The position numbers were made by a program, and so were the translations under genes. Under the pieces are notes generated by a model, which was not told where the DNA came from, made no database searches, and saw only the letters and a program-made list of their open reading frames with translations. A stretch of DNA of 33,679 bases, from IMG/VR virus record IMGVR_UViG_3300005264_000075, positions 1 to 33,679 of that record. The stretch is one strand, 5' to 3'. Below are positions 3,894-23,828 of the stretch, one piece after another. Numbering within the stretch: position 1 is the first letter of the stretch; every line of letters begins with the position of its first letter. The DNA comes from a virus.

Positions 3894-4442
3894 GTGAGTA
3901 AATACAACATCATATATGCAGATCCAGCTTGGAGTTTTAAAGAGAATTGGGGTAACGGATGTGTTAAACACCACTACAAGACAATGAGTAGTTCAAGAAT
4001 CGAGAACCTAGATGTAAAAAGCTTAACCGACAAAAATGCCCACTTGTACCTATGGACTACAAACTCGCACATACACGAAGCGTTACATGTAATGAGTGCT
4101 TGGGGTTTTAATTTTAAACAGATCTTAACTTGGGTTAAAACATATAAGAACGGAGATCCTATCATGGGGTTAGGTTATTACTATAGGGGTTGCACAGAAC
4201 ATTTATTGTTTGGAGTTAAGGGGTCGATGAAGATACTAAACAAAAACACCAAAAATCTAATCATCCACGAACGACCTAATAACAAACACTCTAAAAAACC
4301 CGACCTTGTAAGAGATATAATTGTTGCCTGTAGTGGTAATCTCCCTCGAATTGAATTATTCTCCAGAAAAAAAGTAGAGGGTTGGGACGCCTGGGGCGAC
4401 GAGGTAGAAAATGATATAGCGATTGACGAGCTTAACAAATGA
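3894..4442 (+). CDS. MT-A70-family adenine-N6 DNA methyltransferase
   Basis: The protein opens with KYNIIYADPAWSF; D10-P-A-W13 occupies the place of the DPPW catalytic motif of the MT-A70 family, with Ala in place of the second Pro. Further family features are HYKTMS, HLYLWTT, a TWVKTYKN strand and the closing PRIELFSRKKVEGWDAWGDE. It should methylate adenine N6 in the phage's own DNA, most likely to evade host restriction. The start is GTG with GGAGG eight bases upstream. Its stop overlaps the ATG of the PP-loop gene (ATGA), so the two are translationally coupled. Confidence 0.85.
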   Translation: MSKYNIIYADPAWSFKENWGNGCVKHHYKTMSSSRIENLDVKSLTDKNAHLYLWTTNSHIHEALHVMSAWGFNFKQILTWVKTYKNGDPIMGLGYYYRGCTEHLLFGVKGSMKILNKNTKNLIIHERPNNKHSKKPDLVRDIIVACSGNLPRIELFSRKKVEGWDAWGDEVENDIAIDELNK

Positions 4443-5155
4443 ACGTAGTCTCTTGGTTTAGTGCTGGTATTTCGTCGGCTTTAGCTACTAAAATTGCATT
4501 AAACAAATATCCCGATATGACGATTGTTTATATTGACATTGACGAACACCACCCCGACAACAAGCGTTTTATTACAGAGTGTAGCAAGTGGCTTGATAGA
4601 GAGATTGTGACAATCAAAAGTCCTTACGAATCTATTTATAACGCTTTTAAGCAGTTTAAATATATAGCTGGCGTTAGAGGTGCTAAATGTACACAAATAT
4701 TAAAAAAACGAGTTAGAAAAGACTACGAAGCAAGCCACAGCATAGACTTATATATATGGGGTATGGACGCATCACAAAGAGAGCAAAACAGAGCAAATAG
4801 ATTAAACGAAACAATGCCAGAGTTTAAGCATGAGTTTCCACTAATAGACGCAGGGTACACCAAAGAAAACGTACACTATGAATTTGCTAAATCAGGAATA
4901 GAAAAACCAACGATGTATAAACTTGGTTACTCCAACAACAACTGCATCGGATGTGTAAAGGGTGGTAAAGGGTACTGGAACAAAATAAGAGTTGATTTTC
5001 CTGACATGTTTAAAAAAGCAGCGTTAATAGAAAGAGAGATTGGTGCAAGTTGCATCAACGGGTGTTACCTTGACGAGTTACCAGAAGGGGAAGGGCATAA
5101 GCAAAAGCCCATAGTCGATGATTGCGGAATACATTGTGAAAATTTACTGTTTTAA
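4439..5155 (+). CDS. PP-loop ATP pyrophosphatase, phage PAPS-reductase-like family
   Basis: The N-terminus WFSAGISSALA (residues 6-16) is the PP-loop (SxGxxS) of N-type ATP pyrophosphatases, the fold shared by PAPS reductase, ATP sulfurylase small subunit and DndC. Residues about 166-180 carry NNNCIGCVKGGKGYW, and further cysteines follow in ASCINGC and DCGIHC near the C-terminus, so an iron-sulfur or zinc site is possible. Phage members are common but their substrate is not established; sulfate assimilation, nucleic-acid modification or counter-defence have all been considered. Coupling to the MT-A70 gene by a four-base overlap suggests a linked role in DNA modification, which is inference. 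Confidence 0.75.
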   Translation: MNVVSWFSAGISSALATKIALNKYPDMTIVYIDIDEHHPDNKRFITECSKWLDREIVTIKSPYESIYNAFKQFKYIAGVRGAKCTQILKKRVRKDYEASHSIDLYIWGMDASQREQNRANRLNETMPEFKHEFPLIDAGYTKENVHYEFAKSGIEKPTMYKLGYSNNNCIGCVKGGKGYWNKIRVDFPDMFKKAALIEREIGASCINGCYLDELPEGEGHKQKPIVDDCGIHCENLLF

Positions 5156-7120: not shown

Positions 7121-7585
7121 ATGTTTAAAGCAAAAGGTAAGTCAGATAATTGGCGCACGCCTCAATGGTTGTTCGATCGACTAAACGCAATGTTCAATTT
7201 CACGATAGACGCAGCATGTTCAGAGGATAACTGCAAAGTGTTTGTCGAGCCTAACCATGGTACACGATGGACGCAGAGGTATGAAAACGGATTAGACGGT
7301 AGATGGATTTACGAACGAGTATTCTGCAATCCGCCGTTTAGTAAGAAAGCAGCGTGGATAGAGAAAATGCACGATGAAGTTATAAACAGAGGTTGCCCTT
7401 TATGCGTGATGATACTACCTATGTGTTTAGACACGAAAGTTTTCAACAAATACATCAACGGCGTGTTTCATTGGGAACACCTGCCATACAGGGTAAGCTT
7501 TTTAGACGAAAACAATAAGCCAGTAAACGGCAACCCCTCAGGCACGATCGTTGTGTATGCGTGGAAACAAATTGAAAGGAGTTAA
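7121..7585 (+). CDS. Phage DNA N6-adenine methyltransferase (Dam-like)
   Basis: The protein matches the phage Dam family: an N-terminal WRTPQWLFDRLN segment, FTIDAACS (SAM-binding strand), and the catalytic N-P-P-F at about residues 70-73 (VFCNPPFSK), with a later PSGTIVVYAW strand. The 154-residue length is usual for this single-domain family. It methylates adenine and is the second of three methyltransferase types in the operon. A GAGGGAG sequence lies upstream of the ATG. Confidence 0.85.
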   Translation: MFKAKGKSDNWRTPQWLFDRLNAMFNFTIDAACSEDNCKVFVEPNHGTRWTQRYENGLDGRWIYERVFCNPPFSKKAAWIEKMHDEVINRGCPLCVMILPMCLDTKVFNKYINGVFHWEHLPYRVSFLDENNKPVNGNPSGTIVVYAWKQIERS

Positions 7586-7586
7586 C

Positions 7587-7709
7587 ATGACAGTTGAAGA
7601 AATGTTTATCGACATAATGATTGAAGCAGAATACTACAAGGGTTTTGGTAGTTGGAGCAACGACTCTTGTATACTGATGCAGGTATACGCTGAGTTGCTG
7701 TATTGCTAA
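7587..7709 (+). CDS. Very small hypothetical protein, 40 residues
   Basis: Unrecognised. The evidence is positional: a strong AAAGGAG five bases before the ATG, exact fit between two methyltransferase genes, and a seven-base overlap with the next start. The product is acidic and helical, with MTVEEMFIDIMIEAEYY at its N-terminus and two cysteines near the end. Confidence 0.5.
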   Translation: MTVEEMFIDIMIEAEYYKGFGSWSNDSCILMQVYAELLYC

Positions 7710-8473
7710 AGCCCTACTACGAAACAAAGCTAGGTAAACTTTATATGGGTGATTGCTTGGAGGTTATGCCACAGCTTGACGTTGAGGTTGACTTGGTTTT
7801 AACTGACCCTCCTTACGGCACTACTGCTTGTAAATGGGACAGCATTATCCCTTTTGAGCCTATGTGGCAAGGGTTAGCCAAGTTAGTCAAACCCAACAGG
7901 GCTATTGCGTTGTTTGCTCAAAACCCATTTGCAGCTAAACTCATAGGGTCTAATATCAGCAGCTTTAAACATGAGTTCGTTTGGCAAAAAAACGCAGGCA
8001 GCAACTTCGGGTGTGTTAAGTTTCAACCCATGAGAGAACATGAGACTATTCTTGTTTTTTGCAAAGGGTCAGCTAACTACTACCCTCAGATGGAGGCTCG
8101 CAAAGGGGGAGGCTTGGCTAGGGTTACAAGCGGAGTTGTTAACTATGCGACAAAGACAGAAAATTACGGAGTTGCGTTAAGAGGTCAAGTGTCGTCAGCT
8201 CGACCAAAGGAAAGATACCCCAGCTCAGTACAGAAGTTTAACCGAGAGAGAGGGTTACACCCTACACAAAAGCCAGTTGCGTTAATGGAGTACCTGATTA
8301 AGACATACACCCTAGAAACCGAGCTAGTATTAGATTTTACAATAGGTTCAGGAACAACAGCCATTGCATGTGAGAACTTGGGCAGGCGTTGGATCGGCAT
8401 CGAGAAAGAAGAAAAATACTGCGATATAGCGATTGAACGCTTAAAGAACGAAGCCCAACATGGGTTGTTTTAA
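7703..8473 (+). CDS. Site-specific DNA methyltransferase, N4-cytosine/N6-adenine beta type
   Basis: The catalytic motif TDPPYG is at residues 34-39 and the SAM-binding motif DFTIGSGTT near 212-220, so the motif order (IV before I) is that of the beta group. GLHPTQKPVALMEYLI just before the SAM motif is a strong family marker. The 256-residue size fits a free-standing enzyme. No restriction endonuclease is adjacent, so protection of phage DNA rather than a restriction-modification system is likely. The start is TTG, seven bases inside the previous gene, with GAG upstream. Its TAA overlaps the TAA of the convergent nuclease gene. Confidence 0.85.
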   Translation: MLKPYYETKLGKLYMGDCLEVMPQLDVEVDLVLTDPPYGTTACKWDSIIPFEPMWQGLAKLVKPNRAIALFAQNPFAAKLIGSNISSFKHEFVWQKNAGSNFGCVKFQPMREHETILVFCKGSANYYPQMEARKGGGLARVTSGVVNYATKTENYGVALRGQVSSARPKERYPSSVQKFNRERGLHPTQKPVALMEYLIKTYTLETELVLDFTIGSGTTAIACENLGRRWIGIEKEEKYCDIAIERLKNEAQHGLF

Positions 8474-9646: not shown

Positions 9647-10018
9647 TTATTTATATAACCAAACAACATCAGGCGATTTGCCTGTATCAACATCTACATG
9701 AACGTACGTTGTACCTACCCCAATACGATCAAATCCAACCATGATTGCTGCATGCAAAACCTGATACCTTTCTCTGCTACCAATAGTTGATATGTCAACA
9801 GCGGTACAGCTCCTTTTACCGCTACTCACATGCGAACTATCATCGTTACTCTTGATATGCCTGTTGTGCTGGATACACCTGCAACAGCTTGTTACATCAA
9901 GCATCCTACCAACTCTGTGACACATTTGGTTAAGCTTAACTACAAGCTCGTTTGACACGTTGTTAGTTCCGCAACCACATTTACAAGCTAAATCTTCTGC
10001 TTTGTAGTGCTCAAACAT
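9647..10018 (-). CDS. Endolysin, M15-family peptidase
   Basis: The 123-residue protein follows the short M15 peptidase plan: ACKCGCGTNNVSNELVVKLN at the N-terminus, VTSCCRCIQHN (where family members have a TSGYRCxxHN segment), then SSHVSSGKRSCTAVDIS with zinc ligands His63 and Asp75, and YVHVDVD with His107 and Asp109. The spacing between His63 and Asp75 is a few residues longer than the usual SxHxxGxAxD. It should cut peptide cross-links in peptidoglycan. There is no signal peptide, so release would need a holin. Its ATG directly follows the TAA of the upstream membrane-protein gene. Confidence 0.8.
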   Translation of the reverse strand: MFEHYKAEDLACKCGCGTNNVSNELVVKLNQMCHRVGRMLDVTSCCRCIQHNRHIKSNDDSSHVSSGKRSCTAVDISTIGSRERYQVLHAAIMVGFDRIGVGTTYVHVDVDTGKSPDVVWLYK

Positions 10019-10264: not shown

Positions 10265-10371
10265 CTGTTTACCTCGTTGTTTTGTTTTTTTGGGCTGCTA
10301 AAGAATAACATAATGAAAAATATCATTGCTATAAAACACAATATCTGAGTCAACCTTAATACCTTAATCAT
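10216..10371 (-). CDS. Small membrane protein at the head of the lysis module, 51 residues
   Basis: The frame begins MIKVLRLTQILCFIAMIFFI, a single strongly hydrophobic segment (residues about 9-24), followed by a polar tail of about 27 residues (SSPKKQNNEVNRW and on). AAGGAG is eight bases before the ATG, and the gene begins 12 bases after the glycine-rich frame ends. Its 3' part overlaps the following gene by 49 bases, so the tail may be dispensable. It may be a holin or antiholin. Confidence 0.5.
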   Translation of the reverse strand: MIKVLRLTQILCFIAMIFFIMLFFSSPKKQNNEVNRWIRLSSTQSLAHLQR

Positions 10372-10383
10372 ATTGTCCACTCC

Positions 10384-11160
10384 TTATGAAACATCTGAAG
10401 AACTCCCTGCTGAACCTGCAGTACCATTAGAACCAGCAGTTCCGTGGTTTGACCCATTGACTGACTGACCTGCTGCTCCGCCACTACCAGCACTTCCGCC
10501 TGTAGTTGTTATTGTCCATGACTGACTATCTGTTCCACCAATCTTGTATACGAATTTACCACCAGAGCCACCAGCAGCACCACCGCCACCACCGCCACCA
10601 TGTTCTTTCGTTGCTCCACTAGTTGTGTGATTAGCGTCACCACCATCTCCACCATCAGCTCCGTCTCCACCAGCTACTGTTACAGTACCACTACCAGAAG
10701 CATTACCTGCAATACTAATATATAATCCTTGTCCGTGATACGCCCTTGAAGCACCACTACCGCCAGCTCCTTCTGCGTCATCACCAGCATCACTTACAAC
10801 AGCATCTTCGCCATCGTTACCTGTATTGCCGTATATAGAAACAGCCGAGCCACCTGACGTTCCATACCCATTGCCTCCAGCACCTGATAAACTGGCACTA
10901 GCATTTCCACCGCCACCACTGTTACCAGCAGAACCACCGCCACCGTTTCCAGTAGAGTCGTTTCCGCCATCATCGGCGTTATGCCCTGCCCCACCATCAC
11001 CACCGTTTGATTGTGCTATTGTGTATGACAGACTTTCAGAGTCCCATGCAGTCTTAGCAAATGTCCCAGCACCAGTGCCTTTTAAACACTCGATAGTTCC
11101 GTTGTTAACTAATGCACCATCGCATCTTATAGTTACCCAAGCAGTACCCTCAAATAAGCC
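10384..11160 (-). CDS. Glycine-rich C-terminal extension in the -1 frame (adhesin tip), no own start codon
   Basis: This is an uninterrupted 258-codon frame with no ATG, GTG or TTG anywhere in it, so it cannot be started conventionally. It opens three bases after an in-frame TAA at 11161-11163 and overlaps the last 28 bases of the 390-residue gene; a -1 shift within 11133-11160 would fuse the two into about 640 residues. It reads FEGTAWVTIRCDGALVNNGT, then long GGxGG-type stretches such as NGGGGSAGNSGGGGNAS and HGGGGGGAAGGSGGKF. Such sequences occur in phage adhesins (gp38-like), where polyglycine-II helices present host-binding loops. No classical X-XXY-YYZ slip site is visible in the overlap, so a real frameshift mutation or a sequence error is also possible. 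Confidence 0.7.
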   Translation of the reverse strand, partial: GLFEGTAWVTIRCDGALVNNGTIECLKGTGAGTFAKTAWDSESLSYTIAQSNGGDGGAGHNADDGGNDSTGNGGGGSAGNSGGGGNASASLSGAGGNGYGTSGGSAVSIYGNTGNDGEDAVVSDAGDDAEGAGGSGASRAYHGQGLYISIAGNASGSGTVTVAGGDGADGGDGGDANHTTSGATKEHGGGGGGGAAGGSGGKFVYKIGGTDSQSWTITTTGGSAGSGGAAGQSVNGSNHGTAGSNGTAGSAGSSSDVS

Positions 11161-12305
11161 TTAACGATTGAGCTAGTACCAAGCTTTATGTTCGGGCTAC
11201 TTCCTGCTGTTCCAGGCCACTCAACTATCTCCCATGTCATTGTACTTGTCTGACCATTATCAGACTGAACAAGTCGTAACGTCGTGGCTGCTGTTATTCT
11301 TAAATTAACATACCCTCTAGGAAACGCTGTTCCTGTACCTGTAGATTTATTGCTCTCCCCCATTACGGACGTGTTAGCAACCGTTACAGAAGATATTGTT
11401 ACATCTTCTATCTCTTCTTCGCCCGAGCCTGCCATCACGTGGGAATCTTCTCTTGTTACAACCATCTTACCGTCGCCAGTATCAGAGTTCTCTACAATGT
11501 AGGTTACAAATTCCTTGTCTGTTAAACCTGTAGAAGTAGTTGCACTAACAGACAACACTGTTGTTGAACTTAACCAAGTCATTGTACTAGCATCATCAAG
11601 CCCACAAGTGCCTGTTGTGTCATATCTATATGTGGTGTGTATAAAAGCTTTAGTTAAATCAGCTACGGTAAAGCCCATAGTGTGGTTACCAGAAGCATCA
11701 TAGCTTTCTGCGTGGACAGTCCAGTTACTACCTGTAAACTCTACAGCAGCGTATGAAACTGTTCCATTAGAACCACTATCACCACGTTGAAAAGTTATTA
11801 TATTAGATGCTAAAGTTGCGGTCCATAAACCACGCTGGTAATTGTTCCTTGCGGTATACGCCGTAGATTGCCCTGTAATAAAAGGCACTACATCACTATC
11901 ACTTGATATGCTAGTTATTGCACTTGTTGCATCACTTGTTGAGGTACAAGCTAAAGAAGATTGCTCTCTAACTTTAATTTCGTTATCACCACCACTTGAA
12001 CCAACGTAGCAAATTATTTCCCAATCAATCCTACAGTTGTTAGCTGAGCCAACCCTTGTAAATGTGAAACCAGATGAACTTACTGCTGATATATAACAAG
12101 TAACATCATCAGCGTTTTGGCTTCCACCGCCTGACGTTCTACCCATGCCTGAGTAATGTGTGCTTGTTATCCTAAGGAACCAACCATCACTAGCATAGCT
12201 TGACGGCATGTCATAGTCTGTACCTTCAACCAAAGATAGAGCGGTATTGCCTGATGCAATTACGCTAGTGCCTCTTACTACCTCAAAATCTGGTGTTACA
12301 GCCAT
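11133..12305 (-). CDS. Putative tail adhesin / receptor-binding protein, 390 residues (0-frame part)
   Basis: The protein is rich in Ser, Thr and Gly and predicted all-beta. Two related halves each hold a segment with a Trp-bearing strand (SDGWFLRITS, RIDWEIICYVG and, near the end, TSTMTWEIVEWPG), suggesting repeated beta-sandwich domains. It ends IKLGTSSIVKAYLRVLLG; the phrase IKLGTS..KAYL is reminiscent of linkers in phage tail proteins that continue further, consistent with the glycine-rich -1 frame being its natural continuation. It follows the 964-residue fibre after four bases and presumably joins the same adhesion apparatus. Confidence 0.7.
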   Translation of the reverse strand: MAVTPDFEVVRGTSVIASGNTALSLVEGTDYDMPSSYASDGWFLRITSTHYSGMGRTSGGGSQNADDVTCYISAVSSSGFTFTRVGSANNCRIDWEIICYVGSSGGDNEIKVREQSSLACTSTSDATSAITSISSDSDVVPFITGQSTAYTARNNYQRGLWTATLASNIITFQRGDSGSNGTVSYAAVEFTGSNWTVHAESYDASGNHTMGFTVADLTKAFIHTTYRYDTTGTCGLDDASTMTWLSSTTVLSVSATTSTGLTDKEFVTYIVENSDTGDGKMVVTREDSHVMAGSGEEEIEDVTISSVTVANTSVMGESNKSTGTGTAFPRGYVNLRITAATTLRLVQSDNGQTSTMTWEIVEWPGTAGSSPNIKLGTSSIVKAYLRVLLG

Positions 12306-12309
12306 TGTC

Positions 12310-15204
12310 TTACCCTGTTATTAAATATAAAGTTGTTGTAGATGGAGTGCTGATTGCGTCGTACGATGCTTGCGTCCCTGACCATATATCCATAACTCCT
12401 GAAGTAACATTAGTATAAGTTCCACTTGCCGTCCTAGACATTATACCATTACTTGTGAAATCTGCATCCTTTATTGATGCTGCGTCCATTGTTTCTATTT
12501 TGTCTCTTATGGCATTCTTAGAAGCACCGTTGGTTGTATCACCGTTCCAGCTAGTTGCGTCATAAGCTGTGTCGCTTATTGAAGCACCTCCGCCTGAGCC
12601 ATTCTCTACCCACGATCTAGTTCCGTCTGTCTGAGAGGCTAGAACATAATTGTTGGTAGATGGGTTACCTAAAGCGTCTTCTTTGGTGTCGATCGCTGTT
12701 TGTTGTGCCGTACTTACGGGCTTGTCAGCGTCGCTTGTATTGTTACAATTACCTAAGCCGACATCTGTAGCATCCACACTATGAGGATTGTTTGTTAAAC
12801 CTCTATGTGTCGTATTTGTGGCAACGTCTACTGAATCAGTATAGGATATCTTGTCATTGTTGGTTGCTATATTGCTTTCCATTGTGTCTAAATTTACTGC
12901 TTGTGTTACAGTTATGTATCCTACCTTAGTTGAAGACGCACTATCAAAGCTTATTTTTGCATTGTTAGCTACAACGTCACTATGGTTTTTACCATCGCTT
13001 GTCCTATGTGTTGTATTAAGAGCTACAGTGTCATCAATAGTTTCTAAAGCAAGTTGCACATTAGTATCTGCCGAACTTAAAGCGCCATTAAAATTAGTTA
13101 CATCAGCAGCAACCTCATTAGCGATAGCGGTAGCGGTACTGTTGCCGCTGACCCCACCCTTTACTGTTCTTAGGTCAACATGAGTAGACCCATCTGCTAA
13201 ATTTTCTAAGTCACCATTACGTCTAACTATCCAAGCCTGCAAAAACACAAACTCAGGACTAGGCAGCCCATCCATAACAAGGCTGGCTATTTCATCCTCG
13301 ATAGCATCTCTTGCATCTCGACGACTAGCGTACCCATTTTGACCTATAACTTTCTTAACATTATAACCACTTAAATCTGATGTGGCGATTGTAAATATTA
13401 TTATATAGTCAGTAGTTGAAGTGCTCGGTGTTAATTGCCAAGTAGAACCCGTCCACTCGTTCCAAACAACATCACTTCCGCCATTCATAAACCCTACTTT
13501 GTTGTCAGGAGTTGAACCTGTCCATTCACCTGTAGCTCCTAATCTGTATATAAAAGGAGCTGTTGGTTGCAAGCTTAACTCATGCCTTATATCCTCATCC
13601 CAAAAATAACCGCTTGTGTGTGCTGTATAAGTGTCGTTAGCATCCACTAACCCTGTAACATCTAAACCACTCTCAAACCTTGCTCCATATGTTGCATGGT
13701 TAAAATGATGGGTTCTACCATCCATTAACTTGCCATGTACCTCATTACCCACAATCGCTGTTTCTGCTGTAGCGTTCCAATAAACAAGCCCTGTTATAGC
13801 GTTCTCGTAAAAAACTGCTGGAACTATAGAACCCTGTGCTACATATTGAAGTACGCCACTATTGTCAAAATAAATATAATATGTATCTGTTGTATCTGGA
13901 ATAACAACGCTTTGAGTAGTCGTCTTTGTTATCTTTTTATTATTAACCCAGAAAGAAAAGTTAGCTTGTCCACCTTTAACACTTGCCGTAAAGGTTCTAG
14001 TCCCTGTGGTAAAAGCTATATCTGGCAATGTGTCTGTGTCGGTTAAATCATAACCACTAACAAGCCTTGTCTCGCCTATCTCTGCTAGTACCGCCTCAAT
14101 ATCTGTGCCTGTAAAATGGTCTGCTGTATCTGTTACTGCAATATCAGAAGCTGTTGCTGACAAAGGCAAATACCTGGCATCACCTCTAGCGTCATTATGG
14201 TACTGAGAATGGTCGTCATCACCCAAGCCTGTCAAGGCTCCATGATCTGTTACTCCGCCACCGCCCGAACCGTTCTCTACCCAACTTCTAGTCCCATCTG
14301 TTTGTGAGGCAAGAACGTAGTTGTTTGTTGAAGGGTTACCTAAAGCGTCTTCCTTTGTGTCTATCTCTGTTTGTTGTGCTGTCGACACAGGCTTATCAGC
14401 ATCACTCGTGTTATTGCAATTACCTAAACCAACGTCAGAAGCGACTACACCATGTGGGTTGTTTGTCAAATTCCTGTGTGTTGTGTTTGTAGCAACGTCT
14501 GCATGGTCAGAGCCGTCACCCGTCCTGTGACTCGTGTTAGCACTTACTGCTGCTGAATCAGTATAAGATATCTTGCCATTGTTTGTCGCTATATCACTTT
14601 CCATTGTATCTAAGTTTACTGCTTGTGTTACAGTTATGTATCCTACCTTCGTTGCGTCAGCACTAGGGTATGAAACTTTTGCGTTGTTGGCTACAACGTC
14701 ACTATGATCTTTACCATCGCTACTTCTATGGGTGGTATTAAGTGCCACCGCAGCTCCGTCTGTATATGAAATTTTTGCGTTGTTGGCTACCACGTCTGAA
14801 TGGTCCTTGCCGTCACTACTTCTATGTGTAGTGTTTAAGGCAACTACTGCTGCGTCTGTATACGACACCTTTCCGTTATTGGTTGCAGTGTCGCTTTCTA
14901 TTGTATCTAAGTCAACCGCTTGCGTTACCGTTATATGTCCTACTTTTGTGTTCGCTGCTGCTGTTGTAAACTTGTTGGTTGACGATGCGTCTGATAGGTC
15001 GTCAGTATCTAATATAACAACGCCTGTCTGTCCGTTAACACTATCTACAGGGGCAGAACCCCCTGCGTCAACAGCGATACCACCCGCCGTCGAACCGTCA
15101 CCAACGTATAGTTGCTTGGTGTCCGAACACCATATTGGCTCGCCGTCTGCTGGTGTTACCGTTCCTCTCTCTACGTTAGTCCCTCTGCGTAGTTTAAGCG
15201 ACAT
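12310..15204 (-). CDS. Tail fibre protein with Mtd-like N-terminus and duplicated module, 964 residues
   Basis: The N-terminus LKLRRGTNVERGTVTPADGE followed by PIWCSDTKQLYVGDG resembles the N-terminal domain of the BPP-1 major tropism determinant and related fibres. Repeats with LNTTHRSSDGKDHSDV, typical of phage fibre shafts, occur at several places. A module of about 130-150 residues occurs twice (about residues 163-316 and 741-872), each ending YVLASQTDGTRSWVENGSGGG. The C-terminus (DIWSGTQASYDAI, then TLYLITG) is a common end of phage tail proteins. It is probably a trimeric receptor-binding fibre. Its ATG overlaps the stop of the 45-residue gene. Confidence 0.8.
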   Translation of the reverse strand: MSLKLRRGTNVERGTVTPADGEPIWCSDTKQLYVGDGSTAGGIAVDAGGSAPVDSVNGQTGVVILDTDDLSDASSTNKFTTAAANTKVGHITVTQAVDLDTIESDTATNNGKVSYTDAAVVALNTTHRSSDGKDHSDVVANNAKISYTDGAAVALNTTHRSSDGKDHSDVVANNAKVSYPSADATKVGYITVTQAVNLDTMESDIATNNGKISYTDSAAVSANTSHRTGDGSDHADVATNTTHRNLTNNPHGVVASDVGLGNCNNTSDADKPVSTAQQTEIDTKEDALGNPSTNNYVLASQTDGTRSWVENGSGGGGVTDHGALTGLGDDDHSQYHNDARGDARYLPLSATASDIAVTDTADHFTGTDIEAVLAEIGETRLVSGYDLTDTDTLPDIAFTTGTRTFTASVKGGQANFSFWVNNKKITKTTTQSVVIPDTTDTYYIYFDNSGVLQYVAQGSIVPAVFYENAITGLVYWNATAETAIVGNEVHGKLMDGRTHHFNHATYGARFESGLDVTGLVDANDTYTAHTSGYFWDEDIRHELSLQPTAPFIYRLGATGEWTGSTPDNKVGFMNGGSDVVWNEWTGSTWQLTPSTSTTDYIIIFTIATSDLSGYNVKKVIGQNGYASRRDARDAIEDEIASLVMDGLPSPEFVFLQAWIVRRNGDLENLADGSTHVDLRTVKGGVSGNSTATAIANEVAADVTNFNGALSSADTNVQLALETIDDTVALNTTHRTSDGKNHSDVVANNAKISFDSASSTKVGYITVTQAVNLDTMESNIATNNDKISYTDSVDVATNTTHRGLTNNPHSVDATDVGLGNCNNTSDADKPVSTAQQTAIDTKEDALGNPSTNNYVLASQTDGTRSWVENGSGGGASISDTAYDATSWNGDTTNGASKNAIRDKIETMDAASIKDADFTSNGIMSRTASGTYTNVTSGVMDIWSGTQASYDAISTPSTTTLYLITG
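12588..12980 (-). repeat. Downstream copy of a duplicated tail-fibre module
   Basis: It encodes HSDVVANNAKISF to WVENGSGGG and is partner to 14255-14715. The long segment VGLGNCNNTSDADKPVSTAQ is identical in both copies, while the DNA differs at many synonymous positions, so the duplication is old and the protein is under constraint. Boundaries are approximate. Confidence 0.7.
14255..14715 (-). repeat. Upstream copy of a duplicated tail-fibre module
   Basis: Partner of 12588-12980. This copy carries an extra insert (SANTSHRTGDGSDHADV) between the shared KISYTDS and NTTHR segments. Two further tandem units of ALNTTHRSSDGKDHSDV lie just upstream in the protein. Boundaries are approximate. Confidence 0.7.
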
Positions 15205-15782: not shown

Positions 15783-17603
15783 TTAATACTTGCTAAATAA
15801 CGCTGTTGACATTAGTTGCGGTGACACTTCTTCTGATGCGTAAACTTGAATATAATGCCACACCGCCACGTTGCCCTGCAGGTAGGGTGACATGTAAATC
15901 CTGTTCTCTCTTGGCGAATAAGTACCGCCTATGTAAGCGCTTGTACCAGCCGTAACACCATGTGTGTAAGCCACAACACTGCCGTCGCTACAATCTATAT
16001 AGTGCCACGAAGTGTTATTAGCTTGCGAATAAGGCACAAGATATATCCTGTTCTGTGCTGGCGAATATACACCGCCCGAATAAGCGCTAGTCGTAACTGT
16101 TGCCTCGTGGTAGTAGCCTGTCAAAGACCCGTCAGAGCAATTTATATACATCCATCTAGTTTGCAACGTGGAGTAGTGAGGGACGAAGTATATTCTATCT
16201 TGTGTTGGTGAATATACCGCCCCTGAACACTCACCCGACGGGCAACTTTTTGTATAATCGGCAACAGTCCCGTCGTTGCAGTCTATATAATGGTACCGCG
16301 CAGACAAGTGCTGGTCGTGGGGCGCGAAATAAATCCTGTTTTGCGTTGGTGAATATGCGCCACCAAAATATGCGTTATTAACAGCCGTGGCACCATGTGT
16401 GTAACTATTCAATGTTCCGTCGCTACAATCTATATAATGCCATGTTGTTTCGTCAGCTCGTCCGTAAGGCACAAGGTATATTCTATCTTGTGTTGGCGAA
16501 TATACACCGCCCACGTAGTCGCCTGTCGCAACCGCCCCAAGTGCAGCCGTTTCTAGCGTCCCTGTTGCGCAATCTATGTAGTGCCAACCGCCATCTGATG
16601 CCTTTTCAGCGTAAGGGATAAAGTAGATCCTGTTCTGCGTTGGCGAATATACGCCACCTGCATATTGGCTCCCGTCGCCACCACTGCCATACCCAGTGTA
16701 TGTTTCTATTGCACCTGTCTTGCAGTTAACCCTGTGAAAAGTTGTAGAACTCGCTGGTTGCTCGCTTGGCACAAAGTATATCTTGTCCTCTGTCGGAGAG
16801 TATACGCTGCCAAAGTAGCCACCCGAAACAACGGTTGCTCCATGAGTATATGTGCCAGAGGCAGCTTCGACTTTGGCGTTCCTTGTATGTATCGGTTCTA
16901 GGTAATTAAGCAACTCATCTTGGTCAAAATCGTCTAGCCTTAAACTAGGCGAAGGGTTATTGAATGTTCCGACATGCTCATACCCAGTCTCGCCACTGTT
17001 GATTTGTAATATCTTTCCTGAATCACCGCTACTTATCGCAGGTAAGTTAACTGTTGCAGCACTAAGCGCAGCAGCAACCTCACTTGCAGCAGCGTTTGTT
17101 TCGCTGTCACCCGCAGCAATTTCACTCTCAGAAGCACTTGCAGCACTTGCAGAAGCACTATCTACTGCTGTTGCAATGCTCGCCATAAGCTCGTCGCCAG
17201 TGTCGCCACTTGTAGCACTCGTCTTAGGCGAACGTGCTACCTCTGCGCTTAAGTCCTGTATCTGCATAGCGAACTTATCGAATTGGTCCTCGTGTGTCTG
17301 CTCAAAGAATGTTCCCTGTGAAACAAGGTCTGTGTCTTGTGCAAGCGACATGCTTCTTAATATAACTAAATTGTAACCACTTTCTAATGCGTCTGTTAGT
17401 ATAACATTGCCACCCGTACCACTTCCTGCACCTGTTACAGTGTAGTCTGTGCTTAATACAAGTGTCTCTTCGTTCTCGTCATTTTCGTCTGACTTTTTAA
17501 CAACCAAGTCTGCGTCGGCTATTATTTTAAATGGATATGAATATGAGGAAACTGATCCAGTTCCTACATAGTTCACCTGCGGTGTTGTTGCACTTACTGT
17601 CAT
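15783..17603 (-). CDS. Tail fibre: T7-type anchor domain fused to a seven-repeat propeller-like domain
   Basis: Residues about 1-130 match the N-terminal domain of T7 tail fibre gp17, which docks the fibre to the tail: VNYVGTGSVSSYSYPFKI, a DYTV segment, LVILRSM, and EDQFDKFAMQIQDLS. Next comes an Ala/Ser-rich helical segment (about 140-190) that should trimerise. Residues about 250-590 hold seven repeats of about 49 residues with the core YSPTQNRIYFVPY and a following WHYIDCSDG, which I read as blades of a seven-bladed beta-propeller. Such a tip would be the host-recognition head. AAGGAG precedes the ATG. The gene directly follows the giant ejection protein. Confidence 0.85.
   Translation of the reverse strand: MTVSATTPQVNYVGTGSVSSYSYPFKIIADADLVVKKSDENDENEETLVLSTDYTVTGAGSGTGGNVILTDALESGYNLVILRSMSLAQDTDLVSQGTFFEQTHEDQFDKFAMQIQDLSAEVARSPKTSATSGDTGDELMASIATAVDSASASAASASESEIAAGDSETNAAASEVAAALSAATVNLPAISSGDSGKILQINSGETGYEHVGTFNNPSPSLRLDDFDQDELLNYLEPIHTRNAKVEAASGTYTHGATVVSGGYFGSVYSPTEDKIYFVPSEQPASSTTFHRVNCKTGAIETYTGYGSGGDGSQYAGGVYSPTQNRIYFIPYAEKASDGGWHYIDCATGTLETAALGAVATGDYVGGVYSPTQDRIYLVPYGRADETTWHYIDCSDGTLNSYTHGATAVNNAYFGGAYSPTQNRIYFAPHDQHLSARYHYIDCNDGTVADYTKSCPSGECSGAVYSPTQDRIYFVPHYSTLQTRWMYINCSDGSLTGYYHEATVTTSAYSGGVYSPAQNRIYLVPYSQANNTSWHYIDCSDGSVVAYTHGVTAGTSAYIGGTYSPRENRIYMSPYLQGNVAVWHYIQVYASEEVSPQLMSTALFSKY
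15850..16850 (-). repeat. Seven tandem coding repeats of about 147 bases in the tail fibre
   Basis: The core Y-S-P-x-x-(N/D)-(R/K)-I-Y recurs seven times. First and last cores lie near 16773-16802 and 15890-15920, giving an average period of about 147 bases. The DNA copies differ at many sites, so they are not recent. Boundaries are approximate. Confidence 0.8.
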
Positions 17604-17636: not shown

Positions 17637-20600
17637 CTATTTCTTTAGATTTTGGTGCCATTTTTTTCCAGTTTTTACTATGTTATGTACAGGCAACTGT
17701 ATACCAATTCCAAGCGACTTGAAAAGCAACGTAGAAGCCCTCTTTATGTCTTTGTTAGGATTTGTTGCATACGCATGGAACGCTTTTATCGTATCAAGCG
17801 GAATCCTTACAGGATCTAACGCTGGTGTCTCGCCAAAGTCTCTTGAAAAACGGAAAGCACTGACAAAGTCCCTTGCTATTGGCACACCACTTAAAGGGTA
17901 TGTCACCATGTCGGTAAACACGCTTGAAATAAACTCTTCCTTCTTTTCTTCATCGTCACCAAACAATGCAAGAATAGAACCTGTACCAATACCACCAAGC
18001 ATTGCCGCAGTAAACGGAGCTAACACTACCTCGTGAAGCATAGATGTTGATAGTTCGTAGAAAGATATATCGCCGTCTCGCCACGCCCTGAACTCAGCTC
18101 GTTGCCTATTGTGGGCCAGTAAGGTCCACGTCATAAACATACCGAGTAACCTGGTAAAGCCTTCTGACCTTTGAAACTGCGACAAGTCCATTGATGTAGT
18201 GCTAGGCTGTGTCTTTGAAACAACCTGACTAGCATACTTAATTGCAGCTTGCTCATCTGCTGCAATGTCACCTGTGGCAAAGTCTGATAAATATTTCTTA
18301 TAAGCACCTATCCATACTGGCATAGCCGTGCTTCTGTCTGCAAATCTAATAAACGCCATTGAGAAACTGCCTAACATATCTGGCGTTAGCTTTATGTTTA
18401 TACCCATAGACTGACCTACTTTCTCAACAAGCCCAGGCTTAGTAGCAAAGGTTCGTTGCATGTCTGCCAAGTCTCTCTCAAACCCCGACGAGTCCCTTGC
18501 TCTCATTACAGGGTCTTTTTCCATTATCTCGTTAAACACATCGTTAACACTAACCCCTGTAAGGCTACCAATAGCCCCTACTTCCATCATTCCTTTGATA
18601 ACCCATTCCCAGCCTATAACATTAGCTGCATTAACAAGTGATGACTTCTGCTTTAAAGCCGTTCCTGCCTGTAACCCAAGTATACTGATAGTTCCAAGCT
18701 TACGCATCTCGTCCCAGCCACGACTTACATTTTGTCGCCTACCAGTTACGGCAAAGTCAAACGCAGAACGAAGAACAGCATAACCGTCCTTGCCTTCTTT
18801 TTTCTCTATGATCTCTATCAAACGAGGGTCTCTTATTATTTTACCTGTAGCCCTTGTTATGCCTTCGTGTGTCGTGTACCTTGAGGCGTCAGATAAATGT
18901 CTGTAGAAAGTCTGCATACTTAAAAGTGGTGGAAGATTAGATCCACCAAACTTGCCAAAAGTAAACGTCTTGTTAAGCTTACCTCTGTGCAAAATGCCAT
19001 TTCTTGTAGTAAAGGTTTCTAGTGCGTCTTCTGCTTCTTGTCGCCCTTGTTTTATTTCTGCATCAAAGCTTATCCTGCTGTCAAACTTTAAAGAGTGATA
19101 CCCACCCTTCATTTGAACAACTTTCATCTTGCCATCTTCGCCTTTTACTTCAACAGCAAATGGTTGTGCTTCTTCTTTAACTAAATGCCTGTTGTATATC
19201 TTATAATGTGCCTCATTAACTATGGGAAATAGTGTTGCATTAACATTCCAGAGCCCCTGTATGGCGTTTAGCTCTGCTTCTGTGAAAAGACTCATAATGC
19301 TATGCAAATCTTCGTTGCGTAACTTGTACCCATTCATAAGCGAGTCCTTGTTTATTGCAGTACCCATATACAAAGCAACACCTATCAGGTGATCGGGAGT
19401 CCATTTTGTCTGGTTGTCTCTACGGAACTCTTTAGGTAACGGAACACCATTAGCCTTGTCCATCAAGTTTGGCATCCTTGTTAAAAACTCTTTTAGCACT
19501 TTTAAGTGTGGAGCTGCTTCTCTGCCAAGTGTTGCCATTAAGGTTGCATAAGCTGAGTCAGCTTCTTTTATACCTTCTACTAGCTTGCCTGCTGCTCCTA
19601 TTTTGCCATCGTTTCTAGCCCTATCGCCATCAAGCCTTGCTGCTACAAACTTAGCTTGCTTTAATGTTTTAAGCAGCCCTCTAAGCTTTAAAAGCCCGCC
19701 TTTAATCACTGAGTGTTTCTCTAACAAAGGCTTATCTTTCAGCCTGTCGCTAGTTCGCTTTATCTCAGCTATAGTCTCGCTAGTGCTTTTTAACCCTGCC
19801 TCATCTAAAGCGATAGAAGCGTCTCTACCTACAACAGTAAGAGCAGACAAAGCTTCGTCTAGCTCTATTAATTGCCCATATGTTAAGTCAGTATAGTTGA
19901 ACTGCTCTCTACCTTTCTTTGGTTTAGGTTGTTCAAACTTAACTAACCATTCTGGCATTTCCGCAAACAGTGCTTCGTCTGCCCCTTTGCCTTCTTTTAA
20001 CATGTATAAGTCTTGAATATTAGGATCGAACATATTGTCTGATGTCGTAAACCCGTAAATATATGAGATTGTCTTTATTATCTGAGCATAAGTGTTCTCT
20101 ACCTTGCTATTACTCTTGTTTAGTTTGTTTAACGCAATGCCGTCATACTTGTCCTTCATGCGGTCAACTAATTCATTAACCTTAATAGCTTCAGTTACCA
20201 TAACGTGACTATTAAACTGCTTTTCTTTGTGTACCGCTGCCTGCCTAGCGTCGCCTCTTTGATAAGCCTCATCAGCCTTTACTGCTTCTGCTCGTTCTGT
20301 CTTTGAAAAGTTAAGGTAACTTCTTGCTTCATGGACGGGCTTGTTCAATATAGCTTCCTTTGCGGCAGCTACTGTATCCCTGCCACGACCCCTTACCCCT
20401 GCTTCTTTTTCAGCTTTTGCAAGCTCTGCCAATATAAGCGATTGAGAAGCGTTGTCATGCACGTCAAGCTCGCCTTTCATTGCACTTTTTAAGTATTTAT
20501 CTGCTACACCAGCTTCTATTGCTTTAGTCTTTTCCTCAACCCTTGCAGCTATAGCCTTTGCTCTAGGCATAGATTCTCCAAGGTCTGACAAGGCTAACTC

Positions 20601-23600
20601 TACGCTGTCGTAACCAGAATAAGCTGCTGCGTCTTCTAAGGCTGGCTTCTCTACTAACATGTTCCCTTCTAGTGCTTCATCTTTTGCAAGCATTTCTAAA
20701 AAGTAATCTGTTTCGTTTCTCTCAGAAGGTACTGAGATTTTGTTCATGTCTACAAGTTCTTTAACAAGTATGTCAAGAGGAACACCCTCTTTTTTCTGCT
20801 TACTCAACGGTTGTTGATCTTGCGTCTCTTTTACAAGTGAACCTTTCTTTCTAGTTTTCCTCGTTAAATGTCCTAACTTGTTTTCTTTTATAAATTCTTT
20901 TTCAGAAACAGAAAGCGTATCTGCGTTTATGTAACCATGTTCCCTTGCCAAATGACGTGCTGTTCTAGCTTGTTTTTCTACTCCAATCACACGCCTGTGG
21001 TTCTTTTTTAATGCGTCTATATCAGCACCGTAACTTTCTAGTTCTTCTACGGTATAACCACCTGCTTGAGCAAGTGCTTCGTAAAAAGCATAAACAGGCA
21101 CGTTGTCCATTTCTTTTCTTGTTTCAGCCTTTAATTCCGCTTGTTTAGCAGAAGTCCTAGCCTGCGTCTTTAACAGCTTCTTCATCCTGTTTTCAAAAGC
21201 AGACTTCTCTGCTGCTGTTAACTTAGCTGCAAGCTTACTGTCGCCTTTTAGTAATGCGCTTAACTTATCTTTTTTCAAATAGTACATTGAAGCTTCTTCT
21301 ATTTGTGCTTCTGTTGCAAGCCTTAAATCAAACATGCCTCTAACTTCGTCCGATATTTCAGCGATGTTACTACCTTTAAGATGCTTGTATATTGAAGTCA
21401 ACCACTTAGCAAAGTGTTCAAAAGCTGTACGCAACTTGGTACTTGGAGCTTTACCTTCTTTGATGTACTGCTCGAAAGCCCTAGTTTTAGCTTCCACATC
21501 GTCGCCAAAAGCCTCATCTAGTACAGCCATGGCAGACCTAGCACCCTCGCCACCCAATTCAGCCTTTGACATAATCTCTAAATCTTTTATAAACACATGC
21601 CCTAACTCATGTATAAGCGTGGACAATTCTGCGTTTTCATATAAGTCAATAACAGTCGAACCATCTAAGAATGTTGTCGCACCCTTAGCGCCGTCATTTG
21701 ATGTCATTGCTTCTTTACCAATATTTAATTTAATGTTTTTCTGTTCAAGCCACGTAGCTTTATCAATCCCTGCTTCTTTTGCAGATATATCAGCCCACGC
21801 ATCTATTATCGATATAACCCCGTCAACCTCAGCAGCCTTCCTGCCGAAACCACCGTTACGTTTAGGCTTTATAAGTTGTTCCCTAAACTCTTGTAACTGA
21901 ACTGGTGTCTGTTTGTTAAACGCCTCTTCTTTCTTCCTGGCTTTCTCTGCCTTAGCTAGAGCTATCGCTTCTTTTGTGTGTTTCGCTGTCTCTGACGCCT
22001 TTACTCCACCTTCTGAATACATCACATCGCCAAGCAACCCTTCACCCGTAGGCGTGTTAGCAACTTCTGTGATCCACTTGCCACGTCTCATGGTTAAACT
22101 TTTACCAGTACGTCTTGCTTCTTCAATCTCTTCTTTTGTAAAGTGATCGCCAAGAAACGAGTCGCCTTCTTCTGGTTTATCCTGGAAGAACGTCTCTACT
22201 GCTTCTAAGTCAAGATGTACACTTTCAGGCGCACCCATTTCTTCAAGGGTAGCATCTACTAAGTCCGCTGCCCCTTCTATGTTTTCTAGCTTAACAGAAG
22301 CCATTACTTGGCTAAGTCGCTTATCTGTAAGCTGTTGTTCCCTTGCTTCTCTTATTCGTTTTTTCACTGAGAAAAGAGTGCCTGCCCCCGACATTGTTCC
22401 ACCGACAACACCACCAACAAGCCCACTAGACACGTAGTCGTTAATAGCCTCGTTACCAAAGATTACTTCTGTGTCGTCAAGGTTGTCTTGTGCAAGGTAG
22501 TCAATAGTTCTTTGAGCCACTGACGTTCCTGTTTCTGAGCCACCTTCCTGTAGTGTAGCAAACAAGCCTTCTTTAAGGAATGTCTTTGCAAACTCTTTCT
22601 TGGCAACCTTTCCACTGATAAGCTTTATTGTTTGATTAAACGAGCTTCTCATTATGCCAAGGGTAACCATTTCACCCCCTGCTTCTGCAAGACCCTTAGC
22701 ACCCGAAACACCAACTGCTTTAAACTTCTCAGCAGCAGTCATTGCCCCTTTGCTTACTAGCGAGTACGGAGCTGGTCTTGTGTCTAACGGAGCTACCCCA
22801 TTTACAGGACTATAATTTAATGTTGGTAACGGAACGTACGGTCGTAGCGTTGGGTTAGGATTAAAAGCCTTCCCTTCGTCTAACCCTTCTGTAAAGCTTT
22901 GCATTGCCGAGTAAGCACCAAGAGCATATAACGAAGCTCCGCCTGTTGCTGCCATTGCTGCAATTAAAGGAGCTGTCTCTGCTATATTTGTTGCCAAGCT
23001 TACCGCAGCCCCACCCCAGTTACCTGATTTTATCTGGTCAAAAATACCACTATCACTAGCGATTGGAGAGATTATTTCTTTAAACTCTTTTACAGCCTTT
23101 GTAACTTCTGATCGTTCTGAGTCGCCTGCTAAAAAGGAAAGCTCTGGCTCTGGTAACAACGGTAGCCCTTTGGCTTCCCTGTCAAGATTGAGCTTCTTGT
23201 TTGTTAAAAGTATAGCACCAGCAGCAACACCCTTAGCTACTTCTGGCAGCGTTCTTGGTAAGTCTAATGCCATTTCTGCTAAGCCTACGCCAAAAACAGA
23301 GACTGCCCTTAAACTTTGAGCAATAACGCCTTCGTCTCGCTGCCTAATACCTCTAGCTGCCATTTCTAGCTTGCTTAATGCTTTTGCCTGATCCTTGTTT
23401 GCTGCTGCATATGCTGAATCGCTAAACAGTTTCCTGTATGTTGGGTATATGTATTCGCCCATGCCACCCTTTCGGTTTGCTAATTCTATTGCAGCACGAA
23501 CGTCTCTATTGTTCTTGTATATTTCAGAGTTTTCCATTGCCTCAGATGGCTCAATGCCAAACTCTTTTGCAAGAGCCTGTGCTTCTCTAACCTTTACTGG

Positions 23601-23828
23601 GTCAAGAAAATGTGTCGTCTGTACGGAGCTAACTGGATCGCCTGAAACTGCTGCTGCTGTTTCTAGGTCTTGCGAGGAACGAAGCGACGCAAGCTTTGCT
23701 GGGTCTGCAAACGCAGGATCGTCAGTTGCCGAAACAGGCGTTAACCCTGTTATGTCAGTTAACGCTTCTGGTTCTACCCCTTGCTCCTCTTCCTGTATTG
23801 ACTTTAACCCTGTTATATCCTCGTTCAT
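17637..23828 (-). CDS. Giant internal virion / DNA-ejection protein with zincin-like motif, 2063 residues
   Basis: By size and position after a gp14-like and a second internal protein it corresponds to T7 gp16, the large protein ejected with DNA. It lacks a recognisable lytic transglycosylase. Near residues 739-743 is HELGH in LSTLIHELGHVFIKDLE, followed about 40 residues later by AFEQYIKEGKAPS, whose Glu could be the third ligand of a gluzincin metalloprotease. Hydrophobic segments near the N-terminus (LATNIAETAPLIAAMAATGG) and C-terminus (FTAAMLGGIGTGSILALF) suggest membrane insertion. The end region (SQVVSKTQPSTTSMDLSQFQ) resembles the polyvalent-protein LPD38-type domain. Its ATG directly follows the preceding stop. 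Confidence 0.75.
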   Translation of the reverse strand: MNEDITGLKSIQEEEQGVEPEALTDITGLTPVSATDDPAFADPAKLASLRSSQDLETAAAVSGDPVSSVQTTHFLDPVKVREAQALAKEFGIEPSEAMENSEIYKNNRDVRAAIELANRKGGMGEYIYPTYRKLFSDSAYAAANKDQAKALSKLEMAARGIRQRDEGVIAQSLRAVSVFGVGLAEMALDLPRTLPEVAKGVAAGAILLTNKKLNLDREAKGLPLLPEPELSFLAGDSERSEVTKAVKEFKEIISPIASDSGIFDQIKSGNWGGAAVSLATNIAETAPLIAAMAATGGASLYALGAYSAMQSFTEGLDEGKAFNPNPTLRPYVPLPTLNYSPVNGVAPLDTRPAPYSLVSKGAMTAAEKFKAVGVSGAKGLAEAGGEMVTLGIMRSSFNQTIKLISGKVAKKEFAKTFLKEGLFATLQEGGSETGTSVAQRTIDYLAQDNLDDTEVIFGNEAINDYVSSGLVGGVVGGTMSGAGTLFSVKKRIREAREQQLTDKRLSQVMASVKLENIEGAADLVDATLEEMGAPESVHLDLEAVETFFQDKPEEGDSFLGDHFTKEEIEEARRTGKSLTMRRGKWITEVANTPTGEGLLGDVMYSEGGVKASETAKHTKEAIALAKAEKARKKEEAFNKQTPVQLQEFREQLIKPKRNGGFGRKAAEVDGVISIIDAWADISAKEAGIDKATWLEQKNIKLNIGKEAMTSNDGAKGATTFLDGSTVIDLYENAELSTLIHELGHVFIKDLEIMSKAELGGEGARSAMAVLDEAFGDDVEAKTRAFEQYIKEGKAPSTKLRTAFEHFAKWLTSIYKHLKGSNIAEISDEVRGMFDLRLATEAQIEEASMYYLKKDKLSALLKGDSKLAAKLTAAEKSAFENRMKKLLKTQARTSAKQAELKAETRKEMDNVPVYAFYEALAQAGGYTVEELESYGADIDALKKNHRRVIGVEKQARTARHLAREHGYINADTLSVSEKEFIKENKLGHLTRKTRKKGSLVKETQDQQPLSKQKKEGVPLDILVKELVDMNKISVPSERNETDYFLEMLAKDEALEGNMLVEKPALEDAAAYSGYDSVELALSDLGESMPRAKAIAARVEEKTKAIEAGVADKYLKSAMKGELDVHDNASQSLILAELAKAEKEAGVRGRGRDTVAAAKEAILNKPVHEARSYLNFSKTERAEAVKADEAYQRGDARQAAVHKEKQFNSHVMVTEAIKVNELVDRMKDKYDGIALNKLNKSNSKVENTYAQIIKTISYIYGFTTSDNMFDPNIQDLYMLKEGKGADEALFAEMPEWLVKFEQPKPKKGREQFNYTDLTYGQLIELDEALSALTVVGRDASIALDEAGLKSTSETIAEIKRTSDRLKDKPLLEKHSVIKGGLLKLRGLLKTLKQAKFVAARLDGDRARNDGKIGAAGKLVEGIKEADSAYATLMATLGREAAPHLKVLKEFLTRMPNLMDKANGVPLPKEFRRDNQTKWTPDHLIGVALYMGTAINKDSLMNGYKLRNEDLHSIMSLFTEAELNAIQGLWNVNATLFPIVNEAHYKIYNRHLVKEEAQPFAVEVKGEDGKMKVVQMKGGYHSLKFDSRISFDAEIKQGRQEAEDALETFTTRNGILHRGKLNKTFTFGKFGGSNLPPLLSMQTFYRHLSDASRYTTHEGITRATGKIIRDPRLIEIIEKKEGKDGYAVLRSAFDFAVTGRRQNVSRGWDEMRKLGTISILGLQAGTALKQKSSLVNAANVIGWEWVIKGMMEVGAIGSLTGVSVNDVFNEIMEKDPVMRARDSSGFERDLADMQRTFATKPGLVEKVGQSMGINIKLTPDMLGSFSMAFIRFADRSTAMPVWIGAYKKYLSDFATGDIAADEQAAIKYASQVVSKTQPSTTSMDLSQFQRSEGFTRLLGMFMTWTLLAHNRQRAEFRAWRDGDISFYELSTSMLHEVVLAPFTAAMLGGIGTGSILALFGDDEEKKEEFISSVFTDMVTYPLSGVPIARDFVSAFRFSRDFGETPALDPVRIPLDTIKAFHAYATNPNKDIKRASTLLFKSLGIGIQLPVHNIVKTGKKWHQNLKK

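Follow-up and report, generated by a model that had tools for sequence, protein, structure and literature searches.

A reading-frame break in a phage tail gene ahead of a glycine-rich end of known kind, most likely an ordinary one

A metagenome contig of 33,679 bases (IMG/VR virus record IMGVR_UViG_3300005264_000075, analysed over its full length and called the window below) contains a tail gene in which a break of the reading frame is confirmed; the glycine-rich end of this gene belongs to a known kind, and the break is most likely ordinary. The preferred reading, with a probability of about 0.8, is that a single gene codes for a tail protein with a glycine-rich domain at its C-terminus and that a net change of one base, where two frames overlap, has broken it. 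The original prediction had seen here a glycine-rich adhesin tip that can only be made by frameshifting. The tip survives in part: its sequence is truly coding and most likely specifies the C-terminal domain of that tail protein, whereas production of the tip by programmed frameshifting is unsupported.

The virus is a podovirus, and its portal is closest to those of SPN1S/BPP-1-type phages, with ~40% identity to the portals of phages SPN1S (Salmonella) and BPP-1 (Bordetella). Podoviral head and tail genes are found on the minus strand of the window. The region of interest lies among the tail genes (Table 1). In the 964-aa protein, Mtd_N corresponds to the N-terminus of the BPP-1 major tropism determinant and Phage_tail_C is a tip domain; its gene contains long internal repeats, with copies of 141 and 243 nt and identities of 70-81%. 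A general scan of ORFs, not specific for reverse transcriptases, found no reverse transcriptase among the ORFs scanned. Further away, the C-terminal two thirds of a 2063-aa protein (17637-23828, minus strand) match PHROG 9880, whose function is unknown; this protein is encoded near an internal virion protein gene and is probably a large internal virion protein. For a small phage, there are three separate DNA-methyltransferase-like genes on the plus strand (3894-4442, 7121-7585 and 7703-8473), in addition to a PAPS-reductase-like gene (4439-5155).

Table 1. Features around the break in the tail region; positions refer to the window
Feature	Position	Strand	Remarks
Tail-fibre gene	15783-17603		In the minus-strand tail region, ahead of the 964-aa gene
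964-aa Mtd_N/Phage_tail_C protein	12310-15204	-	Between the tail-fibre gene and the 390-aa ORF
390-aa ORF	11133-12305	-	ATG just past the stop of the 964-aa tail protein; no family match
Frame-change overlap, 28 nt	11133-11160	-	Longest homopolymer 3; slippery heptamer absent
Glycine-rich C-terminal domain	10384-11160	-	258 codons and a TAA stop; -1 frame; no start codon of its own
Lead-module end, IRCDGALVNNGTIECLKGTGAG	11065-11130	-	Spans residues 11-32 in the glycine-rich ORF and aligns to positions 26-47 of the 50-position profile
Gene boundary	10370-10386	-	The glycine-rich ORF stops with TAA; GGAG and the next small gene's ATG follow directly
M15-type endolysin	9647-10018		After the glycine-rich frame, a small ORF and an 81-aa ORF

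The glycine-rich -1 frame is truly coding sequence, because its synonymous codon choice matches that of the phage's genes, codon preference passes from one frame to the other at the overlap, and the glycine-rich frame ends just before the next GGAG. Re-reading of the DNA bears out the geometry first described, namely the coordinates, the -1 frame, the 258 codons, the 28-nt overlap, the upstream TAA and the absence of ATG, GTG and TTG. The stop-free codons run from 11160 to 10387 on the minus strand, in the -1 frame relative to the 390-aa ORF, directly behind an in-frame TAA at 11163-11161, and glycine accounts for 30% of the residues. When this stretch is simulated with an order-1 Markov model, 0 of 20,000 sequences keep the 258 codons open, and the other two frames contain 9 and 25 stops and have negative codon scores. 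The synonymous codon score, which is independent of the odd composition of the glycine-rich protein, reaches 0.114 bits/codon (z 6.2 versus synonymous recoding by base composition) and lies within the span of 0.05 to 0.20 obtained for the phage's other genes by leave-one-out scoring; the 390-aa ORF scores 0.124 bits/codon in its own frame, and the preferred frame moves from 0 to -1 at the overlap. At the far end, the GGAG before the next small gene is Shine-Dalgarno-like and the boundary is tight. The lack of start codons is only slightly out of the ordinary and weakly informative, methionine being simply absent and the probability of neither GTG nor TTG being 0.07 given 10 valines and 6 leucines. 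On the plus strand, a 141-aa ORF (10739-11164) lies opposite the glycine codons and was taken as a mirror of GGN.

Neither half is recognised by a family library. The 390-aa ORF has no match in Pfam, PHROG or PDB and no homologue in viral contigs, genome contigs, the phage collection or 20 portal-related contigs; the name 'adhesin' originally given to its product stems from its position only. The glycine-rich part matches no Pfam or PHROG family, and close relatives are absent from viral contigs, phages and the 20 portal-related contigs. Its sole PDB match, GbpC (E 0.0026), is probably a match of composition. AlphaFold models of the two halves are of low confidence and uninformative (mean pLDDT 33 for the 390-aa part and 39 for the glycine-rich part, the latter bearing on the question of a polyglycine-II fold).

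The kind of end is revealed by a lead module that, in the -1 frame of the window, stands directly before the glycine-rich repeats. Its consensus is roughly YnnLTIdnGvTLxtnGFRIFvkGtLtNNGTI, followed by GGxGG repeats, and the glycine-rich frame matches the lead profile with an E value of 1.8e-5 in a test set of 203 sequences. The match is confined to the second half of the lead; the first 25 profile positions have no detectable counterpart in the window. Because the -1 frame enters the module mid-way (26/50), one would expect the domain to begin further upstream, in a different frame. Other viruses set this module inside a longer tail protein. The comparison of frames among homologues, suggested at the outset, shows that 18 of 18 other viral contigs encode the lead module in the same frame as coding sequence ahead of it, unlike the window as sequenced; 14 of them have an ORF that does not run into a contig end, and in each of these at least 65 codons and an in-frame start lie upstream. 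Scanning IMG/VR for NNGTI followed by GGxGG yields 126 matches in long ORFs, nearly all of them single-frame glycine-rich viral ORFs, with at least 60 in-frame upstream codons in all but one, the exception lying at a contig end; the lead module is common to a sub-group of these ORFs.

At the level of individual relatives, L078 is collinear with residues 13-253 of the glycine-rich ORF (88.1 bits, z 4.3), a score above all 50 shuffles (mean 42.5, maximum 73.8). Only such per-target z-scores were used, because uncorrected phmmer scores are driven by composition: for the glycine-rich part, shuffles reach up to 203 bits versus 183 observed. In L161, the protein that contains the lead module is tail-fibre-like and encoded in one frame; its gene comes two genes after Dit. 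The lead and glycine-rich module is widespread in viruses (L161, L165, L168, L174 and others) and has no Pfam family. PHROG 13336, of unknown function, is matched by three of the five aligned lead-module members; the window's sequence, P0002, has no match to PHROG 13336. Like the tail proteins of L078, L161 and L174, the window has the lead and then GGxGG repeats towards the C-terminus. Unlike the window, these and the others are all single-frame, and a relative of the 390-aa part was not found.

When both frames are read through, the lead profile scores 16.1, versus a mean of 16.2 for shuffled upstream sequence, and it does not locate the frame switch. Joining brings no gain in profile score, and continuity across the junction therefore rests on architecture and codon usage. 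A weak PHROG match of the joined peptide across the junction (phrog_11523, E 0.04) was not used as evidence, and the junction DNA, with 0-3 variable bases allowed, is not found in any other contig.

In the preferred reading, an original single gene ending at 10384 would have encoded an N-terminal part of ~380 residues and the C-terminal glycine-rich domain, probably the distal, host-contacting tip. A net one-base change inside the overlap would break this gene; as sequenced, translation would end at 11133 and the glycine-rich tip would not be made. We infer that the two parts were once one polypeptide. The break has two possible origins: an error in the assembly or consensus of the metagenome contig, which takes about half of the total probability, and a genuine mutation that arose recently in the phage sampled, which takes about a third. 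Several features argue for a broken gene. Both halves score like the phage's intact genes, the stop in frame 0 would by itself leave ~750 nt untranslated in a packed genome, and the -1 frame, devoid of a start codon, runs right up to the GGAG and ATG of the next gene. Against it count that the exact fusion is unseen elsewhere, since the 390-aa part has no homologue, and that the window's other family-matched genes look intact. The contig is thus not generally error-ridden, which has little bearing on one single site. The persistence of 258 codons with no further break fits a recent event, and it also fits regulated expression.

Special decoding is less likely than an ordinary one-base break or assembly error, because the relatives carry such ends unbroken and in one frame. 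In programmed -1 ribosomal frameshifting, as originally proposed, most ribosomes would stop at 11133 and a fraction would slip, giving a form of ~640 residues with the glycine-rich tip. This is improbable, even though the frame is the right one, the overlap is short and the downstream frame is intact coding sequence lacking a start codon. The mechanism is known for phage virion proteins: gene 10 of T7 yields the frameshifted virion protein 10B (PMC4283147). The arrangement here resembles 10A/10B as a -1 frame extension of a virion protein and differs from it in that a slippery site and a downstream structure were not found. The original prediction had quoted the 0-frame codons of the overlap correctly and had rightly seen no slippery heptamer: no X XXY YYZ motif occurs there, and in the nearest approach, T TAT TTG, P-site pairing would be expected to fail. 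Downstream RNA (101 nt from 11160) folds no better than shuffles (z -0.27, pseudoknots being outside the tool's model), and thus shows no stimulatory structure. With homopolymers of at most 3, the overlap is too short in runs for transcriptional slippage as well. The relatives of the module are single-frame, and searches for the full protein gave no homologue. That the phage makes two forms of its tail protein, with and without the glycine-rich tip, by efficient -1 frameshifting lacking both a classical heptamer and an ordinary hairpin is a shade more doubtful again.

Still less likely than programmed frameshifting are a repeat-driven switch and a gene of its own for the glycine-rich part. If there were two genes, the glycine-rich protein would start independently or by translational coupling, from a non-standard start codon. 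A GAGGG motif within the overlap speaks for this, as does the fact that gp38-type adhesins are separate proteins; however, the 258 codons offer none of the three usual starts, no candidate start, even an unusual one, lies behind GAGGG at the proper spacing, and a gene start at the mid-module point where the frame opens is found in no relative. Two genes are accordingly very unlikely. In gp38 of phages S16 and PP01, a beta-helix is followed by a polyglycine-II sandwich that is glycine-rich and contacts the host (PMC12892980). The order of a lead and then a glycine-rich part is similar here, by analogy with the T-even gp38, which, unlike the domain of the window, is a separate protein. The comparison with gp38 made at the outset reduces to this analogy, as both halves fail to match gp38 in Pfam (E up to 10), PHROGs and PDB sequences. 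Equally remote is an on/off switch of the tip by indels, also raised earlier, here taken to be reversible and to act by strand slippage within the overlap. Tail tips are variable and selection for switching is possible, and the halovirus phiCh1 provides a precedent in a known adhesin phase-variation system (cited in PMC7230728). Against such switching, the overlap has neither a homopolymer above 3 nor a short tandem repeat. Phase variation of the phiCh1 adhesin presumably goes by another route.

What the one broken tail gene means depends on the origin of the break. Only the unlikely frameshift reading, if true, would add a novel mechanism by which mixed tail tips are produced. If the break is a consensus error, it serves as a reminder that a 258-residue domain that has no start codon will escape gene callers. 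If it is real, the sampled phage population would carry a tail protein minus its putative host-contacting tip, that is, a natural loss variant.
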